Shown: positions 2 to 64,000 of the stretch, piece after piece
Layout: each line of letters opens with the position of its first letter
Numbering within the stretch: position 1 is the stretch's first letter
From: Basidiobolus meristosporus CBS 931.73
Lineage: Eukaryota; Basidiobolomycota; Basidiobolomycetes; Basidiobolales; Basidiobolaceae
Reading direction: 5' to 3'
Assembly: GCA_002104905.1 (NCBI GenBank)
Contig: MCFE01000320.1
Span: forward strand, 31,521-95,520
Length of the DNA: 64,000 nt
Translations under genes and position numbers: made by a program
The notes under the pieces: model-generated
Databases searched by the model: none
What the model was told of the DNA's origin: nothing
The model's input: only the letters and a program-made list of their open reading frames with translations

Positions 2-3000
2 ATCAAGGACAAATTGCTAATTCAATGCTCAAGAGCAAAAACGGCAAAGAATGCCTGGAAGGCATTCAAAGACACCTACCAGTCATGTTCAGCTGCCAAG
101 AAAATGTATCTGAGAAGAAAATTCTTTACTACAAAGATGCTGCCAGGAGAAGAAATGAAAAATCTAATTAACAGAATTACCCTGCTGGTAGATGAGATGG
201 AATCTGTGGGCGTACCAACTACTGATGAGGATGTGATAGTTACCATCCTGAATAGCCTGACAGACAAGTTTCAGGGCCTTGTATCAGCCCTAGAGTCCAG
301 AACTGAAGATTTGACCTTAAATTACGTATATGGAAGGCTCCTGGATGAGGAATTAAGAAAATCAAGCGCCAATAAGAAGGAAGAAGAAAATGCTTTAATA
401 AGCAATGATAACCAACAAAGGAGGAACCCAAGACCCTACAAAGGCAACAGCAATCTATTTTGCAACTACTGCAAAAGGAAAGGACACACATCAGACCGGT
501 GTTTCAAAAAGAGAGATTATCAGCAAAAGAAGCCTGAATATGGAAATGCTGCAACAACTGAAGATAGACTATTCATATCTGCACTAAATATGACCACAAA
601 CAAGGATTCTCAGACGTGGTATATTGACTCTGGAGCTTCTTAACACTTTACACACCAAAAAGAACTTTTTACCCAATATGAAGAAATTCCAATTAAGAAG
701 GTTTTCATGGGTGACAATAGAACACTTGATGCAGTGGGAGTAGGAACTATCCAAGTAAACCTTAGAAGCAGTGAAGGAAGCCATACACTGACCTTTAAAG
801 AAGTACTCTATGTACCAGAAATAGCCAAGAACCTACTCTCTGTAAGCAAGGCCACAGCAGAAGGACTCAGTTTCAATTTTGACAATTCTGGATGCAGGAT
901 CACTGATCAAAATGGTGCTCATATTGCTTCGGGCATCAGAGATCAGAATCTATACAAGTTGACTTATATTCCATCATATCTGGAAGCCAATATAAGTAAC
1001 TTAAATGAAGAAACACCAATGCTTTGGCACAGGAGATTTGGGCACATCAATTTTGATTATTTGCGCAAAATGATCAAAGATCAGCTAATTTCTGGAGTAA
1101 AAATTGATCCCCCAGCTAATTTGGAGCACTGTGAAGCCTGCATATATGGGAAACAAGCCAGACAACCGTTCAAGAGCTCTGGGTTAATCAAAACTAAGAA
1201 AAAATTAGATCTAATTCACTCAGATCTGTGTGGACCTATGCAAAATTTATCCTTAGGCGGGATGAAGTATTTAATCACTTTTATTGATGATTATACAAGA
1301 TACACATGGGTCTACTTCATGGAGAGAAAGGAAGAAGCTCTGTCTAAGTTCAGGGAGTTTACAGCCATGGTGGAGAGAGAAACTGGTGAAAAAATCAAGA
1401 AAATACGCTCTGACAATGGTGGAGAATATACCTCAAAACTCTTCATCCACTTCTGCAAAATTCATGGGATAATGCAAGAGACTACTGTACCATACTCCCC
1501 ACAGCAAAATGGAGTGGCAGAACAAGCTAACAGATCAATAATTGATATGGCAAGATCTATGATCCATGATCAAAAATTATCCTATGATTTTTGGGCGGAA
1601 TCAGTTGCCACTGCTGTATATCTTAAAAATAGGAGTTATAACAGAATACTTTGTGATTCTACTCCATTTGCAGCATGGTATGGGTACAGACTAAGTGCAG
1701 AACATCTAAGAATATTTGGGTGTACAGCATATGCCAAAAAACTGGCCGGAAATCAGTCAAAATTTGAGCCAAAAAGTGTAAAATGCATATTTTTGGGCTA
1801 CTGCAATGAGAGTAAGGCATACAGACTCTACAATACCAAAGCAAAGAAGCTGATCAAGTCCAGGGATGTGTTGTTTAATGAAAATTCAAAATTTTCACAA
1901 AAAATGACATCAGATGATGACAAAAATTTGATCTCATGTCCACCAATTGTCAGGATTGAATCAGAGCAAAACAATGAAAATTTTTTCACTCCAGAGGACT
2001 CTACAACCGTGGTTCAGCCAGAATCAGTGCCCAGGAATATCCCAGAAGTGATCATTCCAGTATCAAATGCCTGGAGATCAAATCGGACAAGAAATAGCCC
2101 AAATTACTATATTAATGAGGGTACAAACTTAGCCTATGCCTATTCAGTCCATATTGATGAACCTCAGACTGTAAAAGAGGCCCTAAATAGCCCTCAGACA
2201 AAGTTTTGGAGATCTGCAATGACTGAGGAATATCAGGCCCTGATGGAAAATCAAACTTGGGACTTAGTCAAATTACCAATCAACTGAAAATCAATTGGAT
2301 GCAGATGGGTCTTCAAGACAAAGTACAAGGCTGAAGGTACAATTGAAAGATACAAAGCAAGACTTGTAGCCAAAGGATACTCTCAAACAAAAGGACTTGA
2401 CTATACTGAGACCTTTGCACCGGTAGCCAAGTTTAATTCCATCAGATTAATATTGGCTATTGCAGCCAAATATAAGTTTTTTATTCATCAAATGGATGTA
2501 AAAACTGCATTTTTGAATGGAGAACTTGATGAGGACGTGTATATGGACCAGCCTGATGGGTTTGCTGACCAAGATAACCCCCATTTGGTCTGCAAGCTTA
2601 AAAAGTCACTATATGGTCTCAAACAATCACCAAGAGCCTGGAATTGCAAGATAGATTCTTATTTGGAATCTTTGAGTTTCAAAAGGAGTAATGCTGACTA
2701 TAGTATATACTATAAGCCAGATAGAGCAAATCCAGTTCTATTAGCTCTATATGTGGATGATCTTATTATAGCCACCAATAACCTAGAAACATTAGAAGAG
2801 ACTAAATCCAGCCTATCTAAGGAGTTCAAGATGTCCAATCTAGGAGAACTCAGTTACTACTTAGGGATTAAGTTCTCCATAGACAGAAGTACCCAGACTA
2901 TTACCCTAAGCCAATCCAAGTATATTCAAGATATACTAAAGAAGTACAAAATGGAAGACTGTAAACCGGCAGCTACCCCAATGGAGACAAACCTTAACTT

Positions 3001-3730
3001 GGTCAAAACTCAACCAAATCAAGAGAGCTTGGTGCCATCTGAAAGCCCTGACTTTCCTTATCAATCTATGGTTGGCAGTCTGATGTATATCATGCTTGGA
3101 ACACGTCCAGATATCTCATATTCAGTGGGAGTTGTCAGCCAACATTATCAGAATTATGGATCTGATCATATTGCAGCAGTTAAGCGGATTTTTAGATACC
3201 TAAAAGGAACTGCTGATATCTGTTTAAGATACACTTATAAGGATTCAGAACAGGATCTTGTGGGATACTCTGATGCTGATTGGGGACAAAATTTAGAAGA
3301 CAGAAGATCCACCACAGGATACACCTTTCTTTACTGTCAAGGAGCAATTTCATGGAATTCAAGAAAGCAACCAACCGTAGCACTTTCTACTACAGAGGCA
3401 GAGTATATGGCAGCCTGTGAAGCTACAAAAGAAGCAATGTGGTTAAGAAAGCTCTTTACAGATTTAGGCTTATGTCAAAAAACGCCTATTACTTTATTTC
3501 AAGATAATCAAGGATGTATACAATTAGGTAGAAATCCAACTTTTCATGCTAGAACCAAGCACATAGATATTAGACATCATTTCATACATGAAGCTATAGA
3601 GAGTAACTTAGTTAGCTTAGTTTACTGTCCTACAGATGAAATGATTGCAGACATATTTACCAAACCATTAGCTAGAGACAAGTTTGAATATCATAGGTCA
3701 AAATTAGGACTAGTCAGTATGAGCATTTAG
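2..3730 (+). pseudogene. Copia gag-pol polyprotein, truncated at window edge and broken by two stops
   Basis: One continuous reading frame runs from the window edge to the TAG at 3728-3730, interrupted only by TAA at 641-643 and TGA at 2285-2287. Visible parts in order are: gag; a CCHC zinc knuckle (CNYCKRKGHTSDRC) near 470-510; the protease motif WYIDSGAS near 620; a GAG-pre-integrase motif (LWHRRFGH); the integrase D,D,E core (FIDDYTRYTWVYF, SDNGGEY, QQNGVAE); the RT motif YVDDLIIA near 2750; and RNase H (GYSDADWG). Against the copy at 7845-11816 both stops are single C-to-T changes (CAA to TAA, CGA to TGA). No frameshift is seen, so the inactivation is young. Confidence 0.92.
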
Positions 3731-7490: not shown

Positions 7491-7840
7491 TGTTGTAAAA
7501 ATTCGTATTTTCCACCTAAATATTCACCTAACTTAGTCACTTAGATCATCACCTTCAAATCCTAGAGAATACTGACCAAATTCCTTGTCGGGATTTACTT
7601 AGAATATTTTCACCAAAATACCAGGTACCCAGAACATGAAAATTCTCAAAGTTGTCCAAACAGCCCCAAACTTTGCACACATGTTCTTGGGACCTTCCTT
7701 AACCTATTCTACGTGTTTGTAATGCCAAGACCATGTAAAAGTATAAATACTACTTTTACATTCAATAAATCATTAAGTGAAAACCACATAATCTACTTGT
7801 TCTCCAAATCACTTCCAATATCTCCAAGACTCTTACAACA
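7491..7840 (+). repeat. 5' LTR of Copia copy 2
   Basis: The LTR is 350 bp with ends TGTTGTAA/TTACAACA. An imperfect palindrome GTAAAAGTA...TACTTTTAC (7735-7759) overlaps the TATA-like TATAAAT. An AATAAA follows within about 10 bases, so promoter and polyadenylation signals lie almost on top of each other. Confidence 0.95.
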
Positions 7841-7852
7841 GGTTATGAGCCC
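7841..7852 (+). promoter_or_regulatory. Primer-binding site complementary to the anticodon arm of initiator tRNA-Met
   Basis: The bases GGTTATGAGCCC directly follow the 5' LTR. Their reverse complement GGGCTCATAACC matches the anticodon stem-loop of eukaryotic initiator tRNA-Met, not its 3' CCA end. Drosophila copia and yeast Ty5 are known to prime from such a half-tRNA. The ATG inside the site (7845-7847) is also the first in-frame start of gag. Confidence 0.75.
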
Positions 7853-10800
7853 CGAGCTGTCACTCTCTGCAATGTCTACTACTGCTATTACTGGAATTTT
7901 TCCCTCTGCTGAAAAGTTGGATGGATCTAACTACCAAGTGTGGAAGGTGAAGATGAAGATGCTGCTACAAGAAAGAGGCCTTTGGGATATTGTCATGGGA
8001 GAAGAATGCCCTCCTAAAAACGTGGGAGAGGAAGCCTTAAAGTACCAGAAGAAAGAACAAAGTGCCTTTAACTGCATTTGCCTTAATGTCAAGGACAAAT
8101 TGCTAATTCAATGCTCAAGAGCAAAAACGGCAAAGAATGCCTGGAAGGCATTAGAAGACACCTACCAGTCATGTTCAGCTGCCAAGAAAATGTATCTGAG
8201 AAGAAAATTCTTTACTACAAAGATGCTGCCAGGAGAAGAAATGAAAAATCTAATTAACAGAATTACCCTGCTGGTAGATGAGATGGAATCTGTGGGCGTA
8301 CCAACTACTGATGAGGATGTGATAGTTACCATCCTGAATAGCCTGACAGACAAGTTTCAGGGCCTTGTATCAGCCCTAGAGTCCAGAACTGAAGATTTGA
8401 CCTTAAATTACGTATATGGAAGGCTCCTGGATGAAGAATTAAGAAAATCAAGCGCCAATAAGAAGGAAGAAGAAAATGCTTTAATAAGCAATGATAACCA
8501 ACAAAGGAGGTACCCAAGACCCTACAAAGGCAACAGCAACCTATTTTGCAACTACTGCAAAAGGAAAGGACACACATCAGACCGGTGTTTCAAAAAGAGA
8601 GATTATCAGCAAAAGAAGCCTGAATATGGAAATGCTGCAACAACTGAAGATAGACTATTCATATCTGCACTAAATATGACCACAAACAAGGATTCTTAGA
8701 CGTGGTATATTGACTCTGGAGCTTCTCAACACTTTACACACCAAAAAGAACTTTTTACCCAATATCAAGAAATTCCAATTAAGAAGGTTTTCATGGGTGA
8801 CGATAGAACACTTGATGCAGTGGGAGAAGGAACTATCCAAGTAAACCTTAGAAGCAGTGAAGGAAGCCATACACTGACCTTTAAAGAAGTACTCTATGTA
8901 CCAGAAATAGCCAAGAACCTACTCTCTGTAAGCAAGGCCCCAGCAGAAGGACTCAGTTTCAGCTTTAACAATTCTGGATGCAGGATCACTGATCAAAATG
9001 GTGCTCATATTGCTTCGGGCATCAGAGATCAGAACCTATACAAGTTGACTTATATTCCATCATATCTGGAAGCCAATATAAGTAACTTAAATGAAGAAAC
9101 ACCAATGCTTTGGCACAGGAGATTTGGACACATCAATTTTGATTATTTGCGCAAAATGATCAAAGATCAGCTAATTTCTGGAGTAAAAATTGATCCCCCA
9201 GCTAATTTGGAGCACTGTGAAGCCTGCATATATGGGAAACAAGCCAGACAACCGTTCAAGAGCTCTGGGTTAATCAAAACTAAGAAAAAATTAGATCTAA
9301 TTCACTCAGATCTGTGTGGACCTATGCAAAATTTATCCTTAGGCGGGATGAAGTATTTAATCACTTTTATTGATGATTATACAAGATACACATGGGTCTA
9401 CTTCATGGAGAGAAAGGAAGAAGCTCTGTCTAAGCTCAGGGAGTTTAAAGCTATGGTGGAGAGAGAAACTGGTGAAAAAATCAAGAAAATACGCTCTGAC
9501 AATGGTGGAGAATATACCTCAAAACTCTTCATCCACTTCTGCAAAATTCATGGGATAAAGCAAGAGACTACTGTACCATACTCCCCACAGCAAAATGGAG
9601 TAGCAGAACGAGCTAACAGATCAATAATTGATATGGCAAGATCTATGATCCATGATCAAAAATTATCCTATGATTTTTGGGCGGAATCAGTTGCCACTGC
9701 TGTATACCTTAAAAATAGGAGTTATAACAGAATACTTCGTGATTCTACTCCATTTGAAGCATGGTATGGATACAGACCAAGTGCAGAACATCTAAGAATA
9801 TTTGGGTGCACAGCATATGCCAAAAAACTGGCCGGAAATCAGTCAAAATTTGAGCCAAAAAGTGTAAAATGCATATTTTTGGGCTACTGCAATGAGAGTA
9901 AGGCATACAGACTCTACAATACCAAAGCAAAGAAGCTTATCAAGTCCAGGGATGTGTTGTTTGATGAAAATTCAAAATTTTCACAAAAAATGACATCAGA
10001 TGATAACGAAAATTTGATCTCAAGTCCACCAATTGTCAGGATTGAATCAGAGCAAAACAATGAAAATTTTTTCACTCCAGAGGACTCTACAACCGTGGTT
10101 CAGCCAGAATCAGTGCCCAGGAATATCCCAGAAGTGATCATTCCAGTATCAAATGCCCGGAGATCCAATCGGACAAGAAATAGCCCAAATTACTATATCA
10201 ATGAGGGTACAAACTTAGCCTATGCCTATTCAGTCCATGTTGATGAACCCCAGACTGTAAAAGAGGCCCTAAATAGCCCTCAGACAAAGTTTTGGAGATC
10301 TGCAATGACTGAGGAATATCAGGCACTGATGGAAAATCAAACTTGGGACTTGGTCAAATTACCAATCAACCGAAAATCAATTGGATGCAGATGGGTCTTC
10401 AAGACAAAATACAAGGCTGATGGTACAATTGAAAGATACAAAGCAAGACTTGTAGCCAAAGGATACTCTCAAACAAAAGGACTTGACTATACTGAGACCT
10501 TTGCACCGGTAGCCAAGTTTAATTCCATCAGATTAATATTGGCTATTGCAGCCAAATATAAGTTTTTTATTCATCAAATGGATGTAAAAACTGCATTTTT
10601 GAATGGAGAACTTGATGAGGACGTGTATATGGACCAGCCTGATGGGTTTGTTGACCAAGATAACCCCCATTTGGTCTGCAAGCTTAAAAAGTCACTATAT
10701 GGTCTCAAACAATCACCAAGAGCCTGGAATTGCAAGATAGATTCTTATTTGGAATCTTTGAGTTTCAAAAGGAGTAATGCTGACTATAGTATATACTATA

Positions 10801-11816
10801 AGCCAGATAGAGCAAATCCAGTTCTATTAGCTCTATATGTGGATGATCTTATTATAGCCGCCAATAACCTAGAAACATTGGAAGAGACTAAATCCAGCCT
10901 ATCTAAGGAGTTCAAGATGTCCGATCTAGGAGAACTTAGTTACTACTTAGGGATTAAGTTCTCCATAGACAGAAGTACCCAGACTATTACCCTAAGCCAA
11001 TCCAAGTATATTCAAGATATACTAAAGAAGTACAAAATGGAAGACTGTAAACCGGCAGCTACCCCAATGGAGACAAACCTTAACTTGGTCAAAACTCAAC
11101 CAAATCAAGAGAGCTTGGTGCCATCTGAAAGCCCTGACTTTCCTTATCAATCTATGGTCGGCAGTCTGATGTATATCATGCTTGGAACACGTCCAGATAT
11201 CTCATATTCAGTGGGAGTTGTCAGCCAACATAATCAGAGCTATGGATCTGATCATATTGCAGCAGTTAAGCGGATTTTTAGATACCTAAAAGGAACTGCT
11301 GATATCTGCCTAAGATACACTTATAAGGACTCAGAACAAGATCTTGTGGGATACTCTGATGCAGATTGGGGACGAAATTTAGAAGACAGAAGATCCACCA
11401 CAGGATACACCTTTCTTTACTGTCAAGGAGCAATTTCATGGAATTCAAGAAAGCAACCAACCGTAGCACTTTCTACTACAGAGGCAGAGTATATGGCAGC
11501 CTGTGAAGCTACAAAAGAAGCAATGTGGTTAAGAAAGCTCTTTACAGATTTAGGCTTATGTCAAAAAACGCCTATTACTTTATTTCAAGATAATCAAGGA
11601 TGTATACAATTAGGTAGAAATCCAACTTTTCATGCTAGAACCAAGCACATAGATATTAGACATCATTTCATACGTGAAGCTATAGAGAACAACTTAGTTA
11701 GCTTAGTTTACTGTCCTACAGATGAAATGATTGCAGACATATTTACCAAACCATTAGTTAGAGACAAGTTTGAATATCTTAGGTCAAAATTGGGACTAGT
11801 TAGTATGAACATTTAG
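7845..11816 (+). pseudogene. Copia gag-pol polyprotein, one in-frame stop
   Basis: It has 1324 codons from the ATG inside the primer-binding site to TAG 11814-11816, broken only by TAG at 8697-8699, where copy 1 has CAG. Order: UBN2-type gag; CCHC knuckle CNYCKRKGHTSDRC (near 8540); protease WYIDSGAS (near 8710); pre-integrase LWHRRFGH; integrase core FIDDYTRYTWVYF / SDNGGEY / QQNGVAERANRS; RVT_2 reverse transcriptase with YVDDLIIA (near 10840); RNase H GYSDADWG and STTEAEYMA. The protein would make virus-like particles and the cDNA/integration enzymes. The single stop lies just before the protease. Programmed readthrough is possible but unlikely, because neither related copy has a stop at this base. 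Confidence 0.9.
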
Positions 11817-51158: not shown

Positions 51159-52301
51159 ATGAAATTCTCCGCTCCTAGAATCTTGTGCTTCCTCTCTGGT
51201 TTGGCAGCAATCAACGCTGCAGCTTTCGATCGGAGATTGCAAGCTAGAAGCGGTGGGGCCTATGATGTGACGGATGTATTTGGTGGAGGTAATGGCGGAA
51301 ATGGCGATTCTAACGGCAATGGCGCTAATGATAATGGAGGAAACGGAACTGGTGCCTATGGCTCTGGAAATGCCGGCAACGGAGGAAATGGAGCTGGCGC
51401 CTATGACTCTGGAAACGCTGGTAACGATAATGGAGGAAATGGAATTGGCGCTTATAACTCTGGAAACGGAGGCAATGGTGATGATAATGGCGGTAATGGC
51501 AACGGAGGCAACGGTGATGACAATGAAGGAAATGGAGCTGGCACCTACGATTCTGGAAACGGCGGTAATGGTAACGGTAACGGAGGCAATGGCAATGGAG
51601 GAAATGGTGGTAGTAATGACAACGGCGGCAATGGGGCTAGTGCCTATGATACCGGAAATGGTGGTAATAGCAACGGTAACGGAGACAACGGTGGTGGCAA
51701 TGGCAATGGAGGAAATGGAGCTGACGCCTACGATTCTGGAAACGGCGGTAATGGTAATGGTAATGAAGGTAATGACAATGGAGGAAATGGAGGTAGTAAA
51801 GGCAATGGAGGCAATGGTGCTGGTGCCTATGATACTGGAAACGGTGGCGATGACAGCGGTAACGGAGGTAACGGTGGTGCAAATGGAGGAAATGGAGCTG
51901 GCACTTACGACTCTGGAAACGGAGTTAGTGGGGATGGTAATGGCGGTAATGACAACGGAGGAAACGGAGCTGGCACCTATGACTCTGGAAAAGGTGGAAA
52001 TGGCAATGGAGGTAATGGCGATGGAGGCAACGGAGCTGGCGCCTATGACTCTGGAAATGGTGGCAATGGCAATGGAAACGGTGATGGGAATGGAAGCAAT
52101 GGGGCTAGTGCTTATGACTCTGGAAACAGCGGCAATAATAACGGTAAAGGAGGTAACGGTGGTGGCAATGGCAATGGAGGAAATGGTGGTAGTAATGACA
52201 ATGGCGGCAATGGAGCTGGTGCCCATGATACTGGAAACGGAGCTGGCGCTTATGATTCTGGAAACGGAGGTAATGGGAATGGTAACGACGATTGCCAGTA
52301 A
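51159..52301 (+). CDS. Secreted Gly/Asn-rich repeat protein 1
   Basis: It has 380 aa. A signal peptide (MKFSAPRILCFLSGLAAINA) is followed by AFDRRLQARSGGAYDVTDVF, then about 330 residues of low-complexity GGNGGN/GNGNGGN interrupted every 20-35 residues by GAGAYDSGNGG or GAYDTGN units. It ends GNDDCQ, with a single Cys near the end. There is no known domain; it is probably an extracellular, cell-wall or matrix protein, by composition only. It is a tandem paralogue of the gene at 53195; the first 45 residues and leader are virtually identical. The codon pattern keeps all frames and the opposite strand open, so overlapping ORFs are artefacts. Confidence 0.75.
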   Translation: MKFSAPRILCFLSGLAAINAAAFDRRLQARSGGAYDVTDVFGGGNGGNGDSNGNGANDNGGNGTGAYGSGNAGNGGNGAGAYDSGNAGNDNGGNGIGAYNSGNGGNGDDNGGNGNGGNGDDNEGNGAGTYDSGNGGNGNGNGGNGNGGNGGSNDNGGNGASAYDTGNGGNSNGNGDNGGGNGNGGNGADAYDSGNGGNGNGNEGNDNGGNGGSKGNGGNGAGAYDTGNGGDDSGNGGNGGANGGNGAGTYDSGNGVSGDGNGGNDNGGNGAGTYDSGKGGNGNGGNGDGGNGAGAYDSGNGGNGNGNGDGNGSNGASAYDSGNSGNNNGKGGNGGGNGNGGNGGSNDNGGNGAGAHDTGNGAGAYDSGNGGNGNGNDDCQ

Positions 52302-53194: not shown

Positions 53195-54403
53195 ATGAAA
53201 TTCTCCGCTCCTAGAATCTTGTGCTTCCTCTCTGGTTTGGCAGCAATCAACGCTGCAGCTTTCGATCGGAGATTGCAAGCTAGAAGCGGTGGGGCCTATG
53301 ATGTGACGGATGTATTTGATGGTGGAAATGGTGGAAATGGCGATTCTAACGGCAATGGTGGTGATGGTAATGGAGGAAACGGAGCTGGTGCCTATGGCTC
53401 TGGAAATGGCGGCAACGGAAACCAAGGCGGTGGAAATGGTGGTAACGGTGCTGGTGCTTACGACTCTGGCAATGATGGTAATGAAAACGGCGGTAACGGT
53501 GCTGGTGCTTATGACTCTGGAAACGGCAATGGTGGTAATGGAGGAAACGGAAATGGCGGCAACAGAAACGGCGGTAATGGAGATAGTAATGGAGATGGAG
53601 GTAGCGGAGCCGGTGCTTATGACTCTGGCAGTGGAGGTAGTAATGGAAACGGCGGTAACGGTAACGGCAATGAAGGTAATCGAGATGATAATAGCGGTAA
53701 CGGAAACGGTGCTGGCGCTTACGACTCTGGAAACGGCAACAGTGGTAATGGAAGTGGAGGCCGTGAAGACGGCAATGGAAACGGAATCGGTGGTAATGGA
53801 AATGGAGGTAACGGAGCCGGCGCCTATGACTCTGGAAATAGGGACAACGGAGATGGAAATAGCGGCAGTAGCAACGGGAATGGAGGGAACGGAGCTGGTA
53901 TTTATGACTCTGGAAATGGAGGAAGCGGAAACGGCAGTAACGGCAACGGATTCAATGGAGATGGTAATGGAAACGATGGCAACGAAGCCAGTGCCTATGG
54001 CTCTGGAAATGGTGGAAACGAAAACGGCGGTAACGGCAACGGAGGTAATGGAGATGGTAATGGTAATGGTGCTGGCACTTATGACTCTGGTAATGGAAAT
54101 GGTAATGGTGGTAGCGGGGAAGGTAGCATTGGCAATAGAGATAGTAATAGCGGTAATGGAAACGGTAGCAACGGTGCTGGCGCTTACGACTCCGGAAACG
54201 GCAACGCTGGTAACAAAAACGGAGGCAATGATGATGGCAATGAAACCGGTGGAAATGGAACAGGTGCTTATGACTCTGGAAACGGAAACGGTGGTAACGG
54301 CAACGGGGGTAATGGAGATGGCAGTGGAAACGGTGCTAGTGCTAATGACTCGGGAAACAATGGTGGTAATGGCACCGGGAATGGTAATGACAATTGTCAG
54401 TAA
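53195..54403 (+). CDS. Secreted Gly/Asn-rich repeat protein 2
   Basis: It has 402 aa, with the same signal peptide and mature start (AAFDRRLQARSGGAYDVTDVF) as the gene at 51159. The repeat body is GNGGNG/NGNGGN with GAGAYDSGNGN units, more irregular and with more Glu/Arg/Asp (GREDGN, GNRDDN) than copy 1. It ends GNDNCQ. The N-terminus is conserved while the repeats differ in number and order, which points to slippage within the repeat after duplication. Function unknown. Extracellular location is inferred from the signal peptide. Confidence 0.75.
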   Translation: MKFSAPRILCFLSGLAAINAAAFDRRLQARSGGAYDVTDVFDGGNGGNGDSNGNGGDGNGGNGAGAYGSGNGGNGNQGGGNGGNGAGAYDSGNDGNENGGNGAGAYDSGNGNGGNGGNGNGGNRNGGNGDSNGDGGSGAGAYDSGSGGSNGNGGNGNGNEGNRDDNSGNGNGAGAYDSGNGNSGNGSGGREDGNGNGIGGNGNGGNGAGAYDSGNRDNGDGNSGSSNGNGGNGAGIYDSGNGGSGNGSNGNGFNGDGNGNDGNEASAYGSGNGGNENGGNGNGGNGDGNGNGAGTYDSGNGNGNGGSGEGSIGNRDSNSGNGNGSNGAGAYDSGNGNAGNKNGGNDDGNETGGNGTGAYDSGNGNGGNGNGGNGDGSGNGASANDSGNNGGNGTGNGNDNCQ

Positions 54404-57400: not shown

Positions 57401-57613
57401 GTTAGTGTAAGCTGCATGATGATGAGAGAGTAAGCTATTGGTGACAATGACTGAGCTGGACTTCTGTACAAATATTCCTAGGGGTGGATTATGGCTCCCC
57501 TAATAAGTGTTGCCCCCTACAGATTTCCTTGAATGTAATGAGCTGCCATCTTACACTATGCAATATGGGCTGTAGCAGTGGCAGCATAGTGCTTCAACAC
57601 AATTCTTTTCTAT
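54404..57613. other. AT-rich subtelomeric stretch without supportable genes
   Basis: There are only short frames with many stops. A few words suggest eroded Copia sequence: near 55930-55990 a frame reads KQAYISLAMVEAN, like the Copia KQPTVALSTTEAEY region, and near 56495-56520 SMIHDQ resembles the Copia integrase. A GGGTTCGACCCCCC word near 54509 resembles a tRNA T-arm but has no tRNA around it. Confidence 0.5.
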
Positions 57614-58347
57614 TAGACTTGTTCTGTTGGATAGTGCCCCATTGAGCCATGAGTGCCAAATGATGCCATAGTGTGCCAGGGAGGCCAAGTGAGCCTATAC
57701 TTGGCCACAGAGTGTGAAACATAGCACTGCATCTTCATGCAAAGTAGCCGCTGTGTTTCACCTATTGTGTTGGAGAAGATTCATTTTTTGACCTTTTTTT
57801 TGGATCAATGTTGTGCAGGATATGTAAGAGCACAGAAGGACTGAAGACATGCATCAGGTACTCAATACCTATGGCACTCTGAATCAAGCTCCTGTAGCTA
57901 GTATCATATCACAAAAATGAATGGCACTATCTTGGTCCACTGGTACTATCAGGCACTATATTTAAATATTAGCCCTAAAGTAAGACCTATACAAAGCACT
58001 TATAGTGCCAGATAGTACCAGTGGGCCAAGATAGTGCCATTCATTTTTGTGATATGATACTAGCTACAGGAGCTAGATTCAGAGTGCCATAGGTATTGAG
58101 TACCTGATGCATTTCTTCAGTCCTTGTGTGCTCTTACACATCCTGCACAACATTGATCCAAAAAAAAGGTCAAAAAATGGATCTTCTCCAACACAATGGG
58201 TGAAACACAGAGGCTGCTTTGCATGAAGATGCAGAGCTATGTTTTACACTCTGTGGCTAAGTATAGGCTCACTTGGCCTCCCTGGCACACTATGGCATCA
58301 TTTGGGACTCATGGCTCAATGTGGCACTATCCAACAGAACAAGTCTA
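57614..58347. mobile_element. Foldback (long inverted-repeat) element, 734 bp
   Basis: Left arm 57614-57960 and right arm 58001-58347 are each 347 bases and nearly perfect reverse complements, with a 40-base AT-rich spacer. Outer ends read TAGACTTGTTCTGTTGGATAG on the left and the complement on the right. Arms contain many GGCACTAT/ATAGTGCC words. The same terminal sequence (GACCTGTTCCGTTGGATAGTG) marks the inner end of the Harbinger-like fragment at 58786, so this may be a non-autonomous derivative moved by that transposase. No coding sequence. Confidence 0.85.
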
Positions 58348-58785
58348 TTGTACATACATTGAAATAGGTCACAGTTCTATTGAAGTAATTGTAAATATCA
58401 TTTCAAGCTAAATTATCTTATGCGCCTGACAATTTTACTTTTGTAGATGAGAATTGTTAGCTAGTATGTAGGTACCATAGGCCACTTTGAGTGCGGGTCA
58501 GATGAAATTTGTTTGGCCCTGGAAAGGAACTATGAAATTTACAATAACTCCAACATTGCTATCTACTTGAGTAAGTACATACACATCTCATCTATTCAAA
58601 CTTGCTCCCCACATGATCCTGAGTATATGTCCAATTTATCTGCCAAATATACACCATTAGTCAACTAAAGGCAGGGTTCATAACATTAGTAATCACTACT
58701 AAAGAACTACTGCCACCAAATGTACAGAAAAGTCCACTTGTAGTGTTAATTCTGGAGAATCAAGTCTTGATTATAATATAATAGA
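58348..58785. other. AT-rich spacer between foldback element and transposon fragment
   Basis: I see no gene or repeat that I can support here. Confidence 0.5.
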
Positions 58786-59691
58786 CCTGTTCCGTTGGAT
58801 AGTGCCACATAGTGCCAGCCTGTCTATAGTGCCAGATTGATCTGGCACTATCTGGCACTAGAATTTCTAACATCATGCCAGTGGTAGGTTATAGTTGCTG
58901 GCAATTTTACTCAATTTTAGTTATGTTGCTCAGAGTTGTGCTTTCCTTGATTTATTTACTCTTCATAATGCTCCAGACACATTTCTCTCAGTGGATGTCT
59001 TCTTGTATGAATATACTGTGCATTGATAAGTATCTTAACTATTTTACCTATTCTGCTGTTTTCTCCTATATATGACTTTCCTCTGCATTTACCTGCCAAT
59101 ATGCTGAGTCTCTTCAGATATCCAAATGTATGCTCTACCCTCACTCTGAAATGATTAAAAATCTCATTGTAGAGCTTCTGCTTCCTGCTAAGCACACCAT
59201 TCCTTGGCTTCCTATAAGCTGTAATATATCCTTATCTCTGACAATCCTCTCCTATATAAGCTAAGTCTGCCATATATTTCTCCCCTCTACTGAATTCTGG
59301 ATGATTCTCCACCCAGAGTGCTTTGGCATGGCTACTTCCAGCAAATGGCCCACTAAACCAGATGATGTTACCCTCAATGTCAGACAGTGCTTGAAACTTC
59401 AGACAGTGTGCCTTGTACTTGCCAGAATAAAAGTACCTCTGCCATCTAGAAGGTCCGTTAATCCTGACTGGGAAAGTATCCAAAATACTCCTTATATGGA
59501 ACCTGTTGCTGAACACTCTGGGATATGGAAGTCTATTGGAGCTTCTAAACCTAGTACTCCAAGCTTGCTCTAAGTCATTCATACCCTCTGCAAGGTGGTT
59601 TGCCATTGCTGTCAGCTGAGAATGAAAGCTTCTAGGACTTTTGTTGCCATGGATGGTGGGATGAAACCTTGTAAGGCAACGGTTCTTGTAA
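58786..59691 (-). mobile_element. PIF/Harbinger-like DNA transposon, 3' part, cut off at 59691
   Basis: Its inner terminus at 58786 (GACCTGTTCCGTTGG) with a nearby GGCACTATCTGGCACTA hairpin matches the ends of the foldback element. The transposase reads on the minus strand toward it. The other half of the element is missing: at 59691 it runs directly into a G-run and the 3' end of a telomeric retroelement. Confidence 0.78.
58956..59690 (-). pseudogene. DDE_4-type (Harbinger-like) transposase, truncated, one stop
   Basis: A single minus-strand frame runs from the break at about 59690 to TAA 58956-58958, interrupted by one TAA at about 59230 in ...GEDCQR*GYITAYRK. Visible catalytic region: LDTFPVRINGPSRWQRYFYS with the first Asp, YKAHCLKFQALSDIEGNI with the second Asp, and VRVEHTFGYLKRLS with the Glu, the usual place of the E in PIF/Harbinger transposases. 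The N-terminus is absent. The stop could derive from CAA by C-to-T. Confidence 0.8.
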
Positions 59692-60705
59692 GGGGGGGGG
59701 GAGACAGTCACCAACAGGTGAAATCTTTATTTCAGTAGAAACAAAGAGGCCAGCGCTACTGTTGTAGCTTTGATACAAGAGTGTGTAGCTGAGGGGAATT
59801 TGTAGGTAAGTTAATAAGAAGTGATGATAGTTCTTCAGTGCCCAAGACACTGTTCAGTGGGAAGGGGGGTAGCAAGAGAGGTAAGAATGACTTGTGAACA
59901 ACATTAATGAGGGGAATGTGATAAGAATTGATATTCATCATAAAGGGAGTGTGCTGCTGCAGATATTGCTGCCAAAGGTCTGTCAAGTACTTCAGGTAGG
60001 CCAGCTTGGGTTTTTCTGACTGCAGAATATAATGAGCAAACTTCTTGACTTCAGGATCTCCAAGTATAGTTCTCCAGCAGGAGCCAGGTGTAGTGTGGTG
60101 TGTTCTCTTCCAGGCCTTAATCAGTAAGTTGTTGCAGTGGTGGAGTCTGAGATATAATCTGGTTCTAAGGTAGAGAAGTCTGATCTTATAGGGCATAAAC
60201 CCAAAAGCACCAAGAATAGCATGTCTGTAGGGGCATTCCGGCAAATGAGGCACCAAGGAGGTAATGCACCATACTGCAAACTTGTCAAGCTTAGTGCAGT
60301 CTCTAGAGGTAAGAGAGAGAAGTGGTAAGCCAAATTCCAGGACAGGGAAGACAAACTGCATGAGTAGAAGGAGGCAGCTGGGAGCTCAAGTTGTAGGAGG
60401 AGTAACAGCCAGTAGCTTGTGGAGTGCCTGTCTTGCCAGGATAATTAACTTCTTCAGGTATGCTCCAGAGTCTAGTCCAGTGGGAAGGAAAGGAAAGCCA
60501 AGATATGTAGCAGAAACCTGAGCAGGTAGAGTGGAGCTCTCCAAGTTGATGGGAGAGCCCAAAGGTACTGTCTTTGCAATGGAAAGCTGGAGATTATTCT
60601 TCTGCACATACTGGTGGATGGTCTGGGAGTCTTGTTGCACATTGGAGGAGGATATTCTGATGTCATCAGCAAAGAGAGTAACCAGGCAGTCAGCTGGGTT
60701 AGGGG
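59692..60705 (-). mobile_element. Telomeric retroelement A1: non-LTR RT element, 5'-truncated
   Basis: On the minus strand its 3' end carries ACAGTCACC...GGTGAAATC with an AATAAAG word and is followed by a C-run (59692-59701 on plus). Its 5' side is cut inside the reverse transcriptase and joins GGGTTAGGGG at 60696. It is the most centromere-proximal of six stacked elements. The A2 copy at 63659-63785 is the same family. Confidence 0.82.
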
Positions 60706-60713
60706 GGGAGGGA
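59756..60713 (-). pseudogene. Non-LTR reverse transcriptase fragment
   Basis: It starts inside the palm: NPADCLVTLFADDIRISSSN contains the F/Y-X-D-D catalytic motif (FADD), followed by NNLQLSIAKTVPLGSP and TYLGFPFLPTGLDSGAYLKK, which match the conserved region after FADD in LINE-type reverse transcriptases. One stop or frameshift near 60385 separates this from MQFVFPVLEFGLPLLS, CITSLVPHLPECPYRHAILG and LRTRLYLRLHHCN, the LINE thumb/C-terminal region. No endonuclease domain is visible; it would lie in the missing 5' part, or the element may use chromosome ends without one. The frame ends LVSKLQQ near 59756. Confidence 0.78.
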
Positions 60714-61491
60714 AAGTCACCAAAGTAGGTGAAATCTTTACTTGATTTCAGACAAGTCTAACTACAAATAAAGTAGCCAGCTGGGAATAGAAGATTCCCA
60801 AAGTAAACACCAAGTTAAATATGAATAAATCTAAGCTAAAGTTATGGCAGTATCCCAGAGTACACTGGAGTTCAGGTTCATGGGGGAGTGAAGTAGATAA
60901 GCTTGAGAGATATAATAATCTTTTAAGAAGTGGGTAACAGCAGGTGAAGGGGAGTTTTTGATAAGTGAAGTGAATCTTGAGATCAGAGATTCCTCTAATG
61001 AGAAGGTCTTGTAAACTGGAGAATCAGGAAACTCTTTGAAGGCATGGTCAGTAGGTTCCCAGTAAAACTGGTCAGAGACATTTTGAGAGAATTGTTTAGC
61101 AATACTTTTGTCAAGTACTACCTCCAGAGTGTGATGGTTGATAAATCTCATGTTGACATTCTTGGATAAGTTGTAACCTTGTTGCTTGAGATACATCCTA
61201 TGCTCAGATATAGGAATAAACTCCACATTGGCAAAGTAGCAGACAGCCCAGTCAGTAGCAGGAGGCAAATCAGAAGTGGCAGGAAACTTTCTTTTGGTCT
61301 TGGGAGGAGCAGCAGGATGTCTTGAGGAAGCAGGAACAGACTTTTTGACAACTTCAGAGTAGGAAGAGTGAGCAGGAGCAGATGATTCTTGGTGAGTCTT
61401 GTTGGCAGGAAGAGTTGGCACAGGGACAATAGATTCTTGCAGATCAGAGAAGGCAGAAAAGAGCTTTTGAACCTGTTTCTTGAGTAGAGCA
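60706..61491 (-). mobile_element. Telomeric retroelement B1, 5'-truncated
   Basis: The 3' end has the shared tail with TCACC 60717-60721 and GGTGA 60728-60732. The 5' end is cut inside the ORF at about 61491 and joins TTAGGGG. The sequence is nearly identical to the corresponding part of B2. Confidence 0.8.
60831..61491 (-). pseudogene. Type B ORF protein, 5'-truncated copy
   Basis: Its frame is identical in register to the B2 ORF, with scattered substitutions such as EHRMYL/EHGMYL. The start codon and the first ~30 residues are lost at the telomeric junction. It is open to TAA 60831-60833, so the coding part that remains is undamaged. Confidence 0.75.
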
Positions 61492-61495
61492 TTAG

Positions 61496-62822
61496 GGGAG
61501 GGAAAGTCACCAAGGTAGGTGAAATCTTTATTTGATTTCAGACAAGTCTAACCACAAATAAAGAAGCCAGCTGGGAATAGAAGATTCCCAAAGTAAACAC
61601 TAAGTTGAATATGAATAAATCTAAGCTAAAGTTAAAGCAGTATCCCAGAGTACACTGGAGTTCAGGTTCATGGGGGAGTGAAGTAGATAAGCTTGAGAGA
61701 TATAATAGTCTTTTAAGAAGTGGGTAACAGCAGGTGAAGGGGAGTTTTTGATAAGTGAAGTGAATCTTGAGAGTAGAGATTCCTCTAATGAGAAGGTCTT
61801 GTAAACTGGAGAATCAGGAAACTCTTTAAAGGCATGTTCAGTAGGTTCCCAATAAAACTGGTCAGAGACATTTTGAGAGAACTGTTTAGCAATACTTTTG
61901 TCAAGTACTACCTCCAGAGTGTGATGGTTGATAAATCTCATGTTAACAATCTTGGATAAATTGTAACCCTGTTGCTTGAGATACATCCCATGCTCAGATA
62001 TAGGAATAAACTCCACATTGGCAAAGTAGCAGACAGCCCAGTCAGTAGCAGGAGACAAATCAGAAGTAGCAGGAAACTTTCTTTTAGTCTTGGGAAGAGC
62101 AGCAGGATGTCTTGAGGAAGCAGGAACAGATTTTTTGACAGCTTCAGAGTAGGAAGATTGAGCAGGAGCAGATGATTCTTGGGGAGTCTTGTTGGCAGGA
62201 AGAGTTGACACAGGGACAATAGATTCTTGCAGATCAGAGAAGGCAGAAAAGAGCTTTTGAACTTGTTTCTTGAGTAAAGCATTTTCAGCTTCAACAAGTG
62301 CAAACCTTTCCTTAAGGAAGGAAATCTGAAGGGAATGCAGTGAAGGCATAAGAAATGAGAAGAAGAGGGTAGGTTGGGGTGGGTGGGTGGGAGGGAAAAT
62401 TAGCAGGGAGAAGAGAAGGAAGGAGCAAAAATTCCAGAAGTCAGAATTTATAGATGGATGGACAAGGGTAGATGGATGGATTATTCCTGGGTTAGGAAGA
62501 TTAGCAGGGAGAAGAGAAGGAAGGAGCAAAAATTCCAGAAGTCAGAATTTATAGATGGATGGACAAGGGTAGATGGATGGATTATTCCTGGGTTAGGAAG
62601 ATTAGCAGGGAGAAGAGAAGGAAGGAGCAAAAATTCCAGAAGTCAGAATTTATAGATGGATGGACAAGGGTAGATGGATGGATTATTCCTGGGTTAGGAA
62701 GATTAGCAGGGAGAAGAGAAGGAAGGAGCAAAAATTCCAGAAGTCAGAATTTATAGATGGATGGACAAGGGTAGATGGATGGATTATTCCTGGGTTAGGA
62801 AGATTAGCAGGGAGAAGAGAAG
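61496..62822 (-). mobile_element. Telomeric retroelement B2, probably full length
   Basis: It is flanked on both sides by telomeric hexamer: TTAGGGG at 61492-61498 and GGGTTTAGGGTTAGGG at 62823-62838. 3' tail (TCACC 61507-61511, GGTGA 61518-61522), one ORF (62349-61621) and four-plus 101-bp monomers at its 5' end (62400-62822). It has no reverse transcriptase, so mobility would need one in trans, plausibly from type A. Confidence 0.8.
61621..62349 (-). CDS. Type B element ORF, 242-aa protein of unknown function
   Basis: It starts MPSLHSLQISFLKERFALVE at 62349. The N-terminal residues 8-45 look like a coiled coil (FALVEAENALLKKQVQKLFS). A Ser/Ala/Pro/Lys-rich linker follows (residues 50-90), then a conserved globular part: DWAVCYFANVEFIPISEHGMY, NMRFINHHTLEVVLDKSI, DQFYWEPTEHAFKEFPDSP. 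LINE ORF1 proteins also combine a coiled coil with a nucleic-acid-binding domain, so a gag-like chaperone is plausible, but I recognise no specific domain. The near-identical B1 copy preserves the frame. Upstream in-frame Met codons fall in the promoter repeats and are unlikely starts. Confidence 0.7.
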   Translation of the reverse strand: MPSLHSLQISFLKERFALVEAENALLKKQVQKLFSAFSDLQESIVPVSTLPANKTPQESSAPAQSSYSEAVKKSVPASSRHPAALPKTKRKFPATSDLSPATDWAVCYFANVEFIPISEHGMYLKQQGYNLSKIVNMRFINHHTLEVVLDKSIAKQFSQNVSDQFYWEPTEHAFKEFPDSPVYKTFSLEESLLSRFTSLIKNSPSPAVTHFLKDYYISQAYLLHSPMNLNSSVLWDTALTLA

Positions 62823-62823
62823 G
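62400..62823. repeat. 101-bp tandem monomers at the 5' end of element B2
   Basis: Units start TTAGCAGGGAGAAGAGAAGG at 62400, 62501, 62602 and 62703, plus a 20-base partial unit at 62804; copies are essentially identical. Each unit contains CCTGGGTTAGGAAGATTAG, a telomere-like word. The period is not a multiple of three, so the open frames across it are not genes. Confidence 0.95.
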
Positions 62824-62837
62824 GTTTAGGGTTAGGG

Positions 62838-63103
62838 GGGAGGAAAGTCACCAAGTGGTGAAATCTTTATTTACTTATGACAAGTATCTAAAGAAGCCAA
62901 GTTAATTTGAAGTTATTCCTAGAAAGCTAGGTCTGAGAGATATCTTCCTGGTAAGCCAGGTCTGAGAGTTGAGAAGCTGAGTGGTACTATAATTCCTAGT
63001 TAGCTAGGTCTGAGAGAGGTTTCCTGGAAAGCCAGGCCTGAGAAGTGAGAATCTGAATATATCTGAGCTAAGTTATACTGGTTTGCGGTAGCTGAATTGT
63101 GGC
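62838..63103 (-). mobile_element. Telomeric retroelement C1, 5'-truncated, non-coding
   Basis: 3' tail: TCACC 62848-62852, loop AAGT, GGTGA 62857-62861, with AATAAAG next to it. The body carries four short hairpins at 62918-62931, 62947-62960, 62995-63008 and 63023-63036. Its 5' end is cut at about 63103 and joins four telomeric hexamers. It lacks the tRNA-like head of C2. Confidence 0.82.
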
Positions 63104-63132
63104 CGGGTTAGGGTTAGGGTTAGGGTTAGGGG
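63104..63132 (+). repeat. Interstitial telomeric repeats between C1 and C2
   Basis: The tract GGGTTAGGGTTAGGGTTAGG and following G-run are in the same orientation as the chromosome end. Confidence 0.95.
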
Positions 63133-63650
63133 GGGAGGAAAGTCACCAAGTGGTGAAATCTTTATTTACTTATGACAAGTATCCAAAGAAGCCATGTTAA
63201 TCTGAAGTAATTCCTAGAAAGCTAGGTCTGAGAGATATCTTCCTGGTAAGCCAGGTCTGAGAGTTGAGAAGCTGAGTGGTACTGTATTTCCTAGTTAGCT
63301 AGGTCTGAGAGAGGTTTCCTGGAAAGCCAGGCCTGAGAAGTGAGAATCTGAGTATATCTGAGGTGAGTTGTACTGATTTGCGGTAGCTTGTTTGTGGCCA
63401 GAATGGCCAGTAGACTGGGGGAACTGAGGGGTATTTCTGGGCGATCACTGGCCAAATTTACTAGGCAAATCTGACCAATTAGCATTTCAAGGATTTCAGC
63501 CAATCAGAGCCTTTACTTTGCCCGATGGTTGATCAAGCCATCTCCCAATGAGCACACATCAATTTATTAATCAAATTTTGCTGGATCCAGGATTTGAACC
63601 CACTACCATGGGTATGGAAGGGTTAGGGATAACCACAAGGCTAAGTGTTC
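63130..63650 (-). mobile_element. Telomeric retroelement C2, SINE-like with tRNA-related head
   Basis: It is about 520 bp and non-coding. On the minus strand the 5' head has A-box-like TAGCCTTGTGG (63643-63633) and B-box GGTTCAAATCC (63600-63590), about 43 bases apart, as in tRNA-derived pol III promoters. The body carries the same four hairpins as C1 (63213-63226, 63242-63255, 63290-63303, 63318-63331). The 3' tail (TCACC 63143-63147, GGTGA 63152-63156, AATAAAG) is shared with types A and B. Both ends abut telomeric TTAGGG. Confidence 0.7.
63590..63643 (-). promoter_or_regulatory. Internal pol III promoter (A and B boxes) of element C2
   Basis: The B box matches the consensus GGTTCRANNCC exactly. 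The A box TAGCCTTGTGG differs from TRGYNNARNNG at one position. No cloverleaf closes, so it is a tRNA-derived head and not a tRNA gene. Confidence 0.6.
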
Positions 63651-63658
63651 TTGGTTAG

Positions 63659-63785
63659 GGGGGGAGACAGTCACCAACAGGTGAAATCTTTATTTCAGTT
63701 GAAACAAAGAAGCCAGCGCTACTGTTGTAGCTTTGATACAAGAGTGTGTAGCTTAGGGGAATTTGTAGGTAAGTTAATAAGAAGT
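63659..63785 (-). mobile_element. Telomeric retroelement A2, short 5'-truncated copy
   Basis: It has about 127 bases of the type A 3' end, matching 59700-59823 almost base for base: ACAGTCACCAACAGGTGAAATC, then CCAGCGCTACTGTTGTAGC. The 5' end is cut at AAGAAGT and continues straight into the terminal telomere array. It is the last insertion before the telomere. Confidence 0.88.
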
Positions 63786-64000
63786 GGGTTAGGGTTAGGG
63801 TTAGGGTTAGGGTTAGGGTTAGGGTTAGGGTTAGGGTTAGGGTTAGGGTTAGGGTTAGGGTTAGGGTTAGGGTTAGGGTTAGGGTTAGGGTTAGGGTTAG
63901 GGTTAGGGTTAGGGTTAGGGTTAGGGTTAGGGTTAGGGTTAGGGTTAGGGTTAGGGTTAGGGTTAGGGTTAGGGTTAGGTTAGGGTTAGGGTTAGGGTTA
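63786..64000 (+). repeat. Terminal telomere array (TTAGGG)n
   Basis: About 35 perfect TTAGGG units run to the window end, with one five-base TTAGG variant near 63978. The G-rich strand reads 5'-3' toward the end, as for a right telomere. The GLGL-type ORF across it is an artefact. Confidence 0.98.

Follow-up and report, generated by a model that had tools for sequence, protein, structure and literature searches.

The window analysed here, 64,000 bases of Basidiobolus meristosporus CBS 931.73 (contig MCFE01000320.1), is the terminal part of a 95,520-base contig and reaches its last base. It ends in a stack of six 3'-anchored elements, all on the minus strand and in one orientation, which very probably belong to a telomere-directed family of non-long terminal repeat (non-LTR) retroelements copied by priming at the 3' end of the chromosome. 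The same kinds of element occur at many other chromosome ends of the genome. An earlier reading made from the letters alone (the sequence-only reading) had proposed a telomere-targeted system of three types; the search of the whole assembly for the 3' tail supported the system, and the count of types was corrected to at least four (A, B, C and D), plus a fifth, non-coding kind at four loci. Two of the counted types, A and D, encode a reverse transcriptase.

The retroelement stack at the contig end

Six tails starting with GTCACC, at 59707, 60716, 61506, 62847, 63142 and 63670, were located where the sequence-only reading had described them, in the order A1, B1, B2, C1, C2 and A2. Four of the six elements (A1, B1, C1 and A2) are 5'-truncated, as had been reported; C2 extends to a tRNA-like head and B2 to 5' tandem repeats. 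The outermost element, A2, passes into the terminal TTAGGG array (63786-64000), again as described. TTAGGG or TTAGGGG stands before five of the six tails; that of A1 is preceded solely by ten G (59692-59701) adjoining ...TTCTTGTAA, the point where a transposase fragment breaks off. The features of this region are listed below, including long interspersed element (LINE) and short interspersed element (SINE) copies and their open reading frames (ORFs).

58956..59691, minus strand: interrupted DDE_Tnp_4 transposase fragment, the broken non-telomeric base for A1 (E 3.7e-5; 23.8 bits, just under the cut-off of 24.8)
59692..60694, minus strand: element A1, 5'-truncated A-type LINE, 3' tail and ORF2 end with FADD motif (end set by eye against other A copies)
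59756..60385, minus strand: C-terminal part of A ORF2, frame shifted relative to the neighbouring piece; protein as in the A ORF2 of loci L039/L040
60386..60700, minus strand: A ORF2 piece bearing the FADD box (RVT_1 E 0.0036; 17.5 bits, under the cut-off of 29.6; a longer copy gives 1.9e-24)
60695..60709, plus strand: telomeric junction GGGTTAGGG with G-run, the A1/B1 boundary
60703..61493, minus strand: element B1, gag-only, 5'-truncated
61494..62821, minus strand: element B2, gag-only, with 5' tandem repeats
61624..62346, minus strand: B ORF of 241 aa, with homology to the C-terminal ORF1 domain of A (two-sequence comparison)
62394..62823, minus strand: 5' end of B2, a 101-bp unit repeated in tandem 4.3 times
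62822..63104, minus strand: element C1, SINE-like, 5'-truncated, telomeric junction included
63105..63654, minus strand: element C2, SINE-like, apparently full-length, with a four-repeat telomeric junction on its 3' side
63590..63643, minus strand: A box and B box of tRNA type in the 5' head of C2, spaced as in a tRNA
63655..63785, minus strand: element A2, short 5'-truncated A-type LINE with TTAGGGG junction
63786..64000, plus strand: terminal TTAGGG array, 36 copies

Distribution of the tails in the genome

The tail pattern GTCACC-N(2-8)-GGTGAAATCTTTA was searched in the 89.0-Mb assembly, which was built from PacBio data (PMC7466969). It gave 1566 matches (1435 forward and 131 reverse), against none for the reversed-pattern control, which excludes chance. 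With 30-letter tails and up to three mismatches, 907 tails were assigned to type A (818 + 89), 480 to type C (441 + 39), 258 to type B (227 + 31) and 214 to type D (192 + 22), and all four controls gave 0.

Placement was determined for the first 100 tail matches listed, on 28 contigs, the sample thus consisting of tail-bearing contigs. All 100 listed tails lay within 22.2 kb of the contig end faced by their 5' side (median 3.5 kb), and on every one of the 28 contigs the listed tails all faced the same end, an orientation that fits extension of the G-strand. On contigs of at least 60 kb, 38 of 38 listed tails were near the faced end, where chance would place about 12% within 25 kb. Among the listed tails, 99 were comparable, and 89 of them had TAGGG at a distance of 4-14 letters in front (forward, 86 of 95; reverse, 3 of 4). 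A copies showing the endonuclease region behaved alike, with 67 of 68 within 20 kb of the faced contig end, the 68 being those of 150 scored A rows that lie on contigs of known length; the exceptional copy, C726:56447-56893, may be a relic inside a chromosome or the result of two ends having joined. The sequence-only reading had expected nearly all copies to abut TTAGGG at chromosome ends and to vary between telomeres, and these figures agree with it, as does the order of the elements, which was unlike among the ends read.

Chromosome tips and junctions

The survey of tips comprised the 18 contig ends that the analysed loci chanced to reach. A TTAGGG array was present at 13 of them, and five stopped in other sequence without an array; the arrays, of about 156-240 bp, are minima, as the contigs end there. 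At nine of the 13 capped ends the array adjoined A, B or C without a gap, at three (contigs C45, C23 and C427) it adjoined the non-coding kind, and at one (contig C1) about 65 unmatched letters separated an A element from the array. At a fourteenth capped end (contig C484), fetched for its D copy, the array rests on D. The non-coding kind, left out of the type counts, contains 86-bp tandem repeats (loci L035, L044, L056 and L061) and may be one more family member; at L035 it comes after a 184-base stretch with 97% identity to the B 3' part.

Junctions were read for 67 distinct tails on the plus strand of 51 loci and the window, overlapping loci and tails with fewer than 80 bases upstream having been dropped. 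A G-run (a C-run in the RNA) and no poly(A) was found at the 3' boundary of these 67 tails. The G-run was preceded in register by TTA in 56 of the 67, and the exact telomeric stretch before it was at most nine letters long in 64 and longer in three. Such short in-register junctions, compared with the far longer terminal arrays, suggest that attachment took place mostly after about one repeat; either the RNA supplies the repeat as template (3' end ...CCCC-UAACCC) or the telomere was very short at the next arrival. Attachment to non-telomeric sequence was also seen, A1 being joined to the cut DDE transposase fragment by its ten G's only.

Two side observations concern telomeric sequence elsewhere. 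The stretch AACCCTAACCCTAA was found within the A 5' region in all three copies showing that stretch (L097, L026 and L053), so that A itself holds telomeric sequence near its start. In the assembly, (TTAGGG)3 gave 8002 + 103 matches, at roughly 26-39 per listed array; these numbers point to some 200-300 telomeric contig ends, which suggests very many chromosome ends or haplotypes in the genome.

The telomerase RNA-binding domain (Telomerase_RBD) was detected in two stretches on contig C880, both above the Pfam cut-off, one of them with an internal TAG that may be an intron edge; the domain was found in none of the 14 control genomes. With the domain present, the retroelements seem to supplement telomerase rather than to replace it.

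The LINEs A and D

A and D have the sequence features of LINEs with an apurinic/apyrimidinic-type (APE-type) endonuclease and a reverse transcriptase. In A, ORF1 is 502 aa long when counted from its first Met, a length obtained arithmetically from L097 and L071, and ORF2 has 922 aa; the A copy on contig C518 is about 4.5 kb long, also by arithmetic; the corresponding lengths for D are 552 aa from the first Met (L118) and 949 aa. The two reverse transcriptases are 52% identical over 465 positions, match RVT_1 (E 1.9e-24 for the longer copy of A and 8.5e-21 for D) and carry the YADD/FADD box, and the best solved relative of the enzyme was LINE-1 ORF2p (E 1.1e-12). The APE motifs YLPPS, GDLN/GDIN, VDW and SDH occur in the relatives of A, aligned with those of other LINEs, and in D. 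A zinc-ribbon-like stretch, CxxC...NGRAG...C, opens ORF1 of both A and D by eye. As in other LINEs, the 3' end is constant and the 5' truncation variable. In the C-terminal part of A, no Pfam domain beyond the reverse transcriptase was found, and no cysteine motif was seen by eye, such as the CCHC motif that accompanies the restriction-like endonuclease of MoTeR and FoTeR.

The metal-binding catalytic Glu of the endonuclease is replaced by Asp in two relatives of A (P0001 and P0003) and kept in the 13 other rows covering the position; A and D carry the same LIDV there, judged by eye. The nearest relatives of A ORF2 among 7996 candidates scored (P0001-P0005) are 48-80% identical to A. Across the 121 aa probed, the scored A rows are mostly 94-98% identical (range 84-100%). 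A stop-free 922-aa frame was found in 69 of 150 scored A rows, with two further 922 rows holding a stop, and a stop-free 949-aa frame in 14 of 90 D rows.

The UGA codon between ORF1 and ORF2

In both A and D, ORF1 and ORF2 are in register and split by a single UGA, in the context GCC UGA CUA C. This context was found in 27 of 29 A stretches at this place, the other two being joined there to different sequence. In a search with six free positions around the stop and flanks fixed by the pattern, the A junction gave 138 genome matches; all of the 100 listed had UGA, followed by CUA in 99 and by UUA in one. The D junction had UGA CUA in eight of eight matches. Given the fixed flanks and the young copies, conservation of the UGA inside A alone says little, and the agreement between A and D on UGA CUA says more.

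CUA after UGA is enough for readthrough in a fungus (PMC4207609), and ORF2 may be expressed in this manner, as an ORF1-ORF2 fusion. Alternatively, the UGA would not be read through and ORF2 would be restarted at a non-AUG codon after termination, as in the termination-reinitiation of SART1 and the reinitiation proposed for LINE-1 (PMC5972666); the relative P0001 is, moreover, listed with an M near this place (codon unseen). We regard such a restart as improbable, given the CUA context sufficient for fungal readthrough and the position of the first Met of ORF2, which is residue 142 in A, beyond GDLN, and residue 59 in D, beyond LIDV. The UGA CUA junction offers a natural case of possible readthrough in a LINE.

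The non-autonomous elements B and C and the shared tail

Over 157 positions, the B ORF and the C-terminal ORF1 domain of A are 33% identical (E 2e-18 in a two-sequence comparison), and neither of the two B copies inspected for a reverse transcriptase, B2 and that in L054, shows one. By its sequence, B encodes an ORF1-like protein only, recalling HeT-A. No relatives of B were found at E 0.001 in a set of 5.8 billion proteins (492 candidates).

C, about 0.5 kb long, is likely a SINE by sequence: it ends in the same 3' tail as the LINEs of its genome, and its head holds an A box and a B box at tRNA spacing. Both boxes follow the general consensus for RNA polymerase III, and the pattern was defined after viewing the C sequence; the pair occurred in 2 of 20000 shuffles, and the B box alone in 40. 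The head fails to score as a tRNA, since ARAGORN found none in C and Rfam, applied to L040:1700-3330, gave no tRNA up to E 1, with one sub-threshold snoRNA match (E 0.18). A candidate further type, E (L041:6296-7180), was rejected as a separate kind, being by eye a C element into which a solo-LTR-like sequence, TGTTGTAA...TTACAACA, has been inserted.

The two-hairpin 3' tail is common to A, B, C and D, with both hairpins in 11 of 12 printed folds, the twelfth being a composite of two tails. Hairpin I has the outer stem UCUUUA/UAAAGA (UCUUUG/UAAAGA in A), with AAUAAA in or at its 3' arm, and hairpin II, whose loop varies, is UCACC/GGUGA. In hairpin I, the tenth pair is C-G in A and G-C in B and D, a double change that keeps the pairing; it was taken from the single folds, as the MAFFT alignment of the tails misaligns the 5' arm of this hairpin. 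Dinucleotide-shuffle z-scores were -5.35 for A, -2.75 for C and -1.87 for a B piece too short to include hairpin I. A stem-loop tail common to a LINE and a SINE is a mark of stringent template recognition (PMC3747384).

Proposed mechanism and alternative explanations

According to the mechanism that we propose, A and D would supply an ORF1 protein and, through readthrough of the UGA, an ORF1-ORF2 fusion; B would add extra ORF1-like protein, and C, with its tRNA-like head, would be a SINE. The RNAs of all four would end in the two-hairpin tail followed by C's running on into CCCUAA, and the common tail would allow the A/D enzyme to copy any of the four, B and C being mobilised in trans. The C-rich RNA end would base-pair to the 3' overhang of TTAGGG or, where the chromosome is broken, to a few G's, and the chromosomal 3' OH would serve as primer for outward cDNA synthesis. 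Elements would be 5'-cut, on the side facing the tip, because synthesis would often end early, and the new tip would then be capped by telomerase or receive the next element.

Several observations weigh against this mechanism. In 11 of 67 tails the G-run lacks a TTA in front of it, and TAGGG is missing within 4-14 letters of ten of the 99 listed tails compared; of the 68 A copies placed, one (C726:56531) faces no near end; and the non-coding kind, outside the four types, is outermost at three of 13 capped ends. One A truncation, at ...GGCAGTCAGC, is common to the window and L040, where the distal neighbours are unlike. The endonuclease motifs are mostly kept, so that nicking inside telomeric DNA may be possible, and the Pfam endonuclease matches (0.001 and 0.0056) are under the curated cut-offs.

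The truncation common to the window and L040 bears on the first alternative, namely that recombination between ends (break-induced replication or gene conversion), and not retrotransposition, spread most copies, for which the MoTeR arrays of Pyricularia offer a precedent (PMC7367193). Truncation points and element order vary among the ends read, however, the 3' ends do not vary and many frames have stayed open, and recombination alone leaves unlike bodies with one tail unexplained. As an account of most copies it is therefore rather unlikely; exchange between chromosome ends probably adds to the proposed end priming, to judge from that shared truncation.

Nicking inside the telomeric repeats with ordinary target-primed reverse transcription, as in SART1 and TRAS (PMC7265360), followed by shortening of the junctions through repeat loss, would account for the APE motifs retained in the relatives of A and in D. 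We consider it unlikely, because most copies have no long proximal TTAGGG tract (at most nine telomeric letters in 64 of 67), A1 is attached to non-telomeric sequence, and the catalytic Glu is Asp in P0001 and P0003 (Glu in the 13 others), A and D looking alike. That the copies are the remains of an extinct burst, protected merely by position, is very improbable: 81 of the 150 scored A rows lack a stop-free 922-aa frame (a figure that includes cut or neighbour-running copies), but 69 have one, most rows are 94-98% identical, and at 9 of 13 capped ends the array sits immediately on A, B or C, which is consistent with a family that may be currently active.

Beyond priming at chromosome ends, a more far-reaching version is put forward tentatively, as a possibility that we would not yet favour: that the tips are kept jointly by telomerase and a guild of at least four retroelements acting as a second telomerase, with a one-repeat CCCUAA template, a two-hairpin handle, a dispensable endonuclease (Glu to Asp), SINE and gag-only riders, and an enzyme made by UGA readthrough.

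Other features of the window

Immediately proximal to the stack, a long inverted repeat was seen by eye at about 57600-58350. G-quadruplex motifs in the stack numbered three on the G-strand, two of them telomeric junctions, and none on the opposite strand; the rest of the window had two and one, L118 had one, and loci L071 and L042 had none, counts that support no general claim. The window also carries a coenzyme A synthetase-like gene, whose product matches a CBS 931.73 protein at 100% identity over 317 aa. Two Copia-like elements were recognised by eye from their proteins at 707-3730 and 7713-11816, the second holding a 1007-aa open frame, and two adjacent duplicated genes (51159-52301 and 53195-54403) encode secreted-looking proteins rich in Asn/Gly repeats, with a common N terminus.

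Comparison with known telomeric retroelements

The closest systems in build are the stacks of MoTeR1 and MoTeR2 in Pyricularia oryzae, which also lie head to tail at fungal telomeres with the 5' end tipward and with 5' truncation, are separated by short TTAGGG tracts (half a repeat to over 20 in MoTeR) and consist of two unlike elements with common ends (PMC7367193). The FoTeR elements of Fusarium oxysporum likewise form head-to-tail stacks at telomeres (PMC12857005). The Basidiobolus elements share with both a telomeric position and a tipward 5' end (100 of 100 listed tails and 67 of 68 endonuclease copies). The sequence-only reading had taken three distinct types with one 3' tail for a novelty; tail sharing between unlike elements as such has a precedent, MoTeR1 and MoTeR2 having 77 bp in common at the 3' end (PMC7367193). 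MoTeR and FoTeR are members of the CRE/SLACS lineage, in which the restriction-like endonuclease is C-terminal (PMC12857005), whereas the Basidiobolus system has an N-terminal APE-type endonuclease in ORF2 and combines two LINEs with one gag-only and one SINE-like element. Kinship is therefore not with MoTeR, the endonuclease being APE-type and not restriction-like, and a CRE kinship of A and D was rejected on these motifs; a Penelope-like kinship (Athena/Coprina) was rejected as well, since the reverse transcriptase stands beside APE motifs and its best solved relative is LINE-1 ORF2p.

In Drosophila, the 3' end of HeT-A, TART and TAHRE points to the centromere, as in the Basidiobolus stack. 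Drosophila has neither telomerase nor short telomeric repeats, whereas Basidiobolus has a telomerase domain and TTAGGG arrays, and unlike in the Drosophila elements the Basidiobolus tail is made of two hairpins and C's. The likeness lies in the attachment, proposed for Basidiobolus, to the 3' OH of the chromosome and to ends that are broken, and in a gag-only partner (HeT-A, here B) next to two-ORF elements (PMC4700185).

The SART and TRAS elements of Bombyx and Tribolium, of the R1 clade, resemble A and D in being LINEs of APE type that occupy telomeric repeats in genomes with a telomerase gene, and differ in inserting inside (TTAGG)n at fixed letters, SART1 ending in poly(A) (PMC7265360). 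The 3' UTR (untranslated region) of SART1 is essential (PMC3747384). Unlike SART and TRAS, the Basidiobolus elements have no poly(A), short tracts and a single orientation per end. Telomere-associated retrotransposons named in 2023 were SART/TRAS, GilM/GilT, Zepp1, MoTeR1, Tx1-1_ACar, Athena and the Drosophila elements, with the word Basidiobolus absent from that paper; GilM/GilT, Zepp1, Tx1-1_ACar and Athena are alike in their association with telomeres, and the passages on them mention no SINE partner (PMC10088271). In the literature searched, which lay mostly outside subscription papers and Repbase reports, no earlier description of Basidiobolus telomeres of this kind and no precedent for a telomere-directed SINE were found.

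C with A and D resembles the SINE/LINE pairs that share a stringently recognised 3' stem-loop tail (PMC3747384), but unlike in those pairs the Basidiobolus copies are telomeric, and the tail occurs also in two LINEs and a gag-only element. Taken together, the elements would represent an APE-type telomere system in an early-diverging fungus, with a Drosophila-like division into gag-only and gag-pol elements, a telomerase domain and TTAGGG repeats kept, and a telomere-directed SINE included. Such a system makes testable the move of a retrotransposon enzyme from nicking to chromosome-end priming, the step thought to link LINEs and telomerase.

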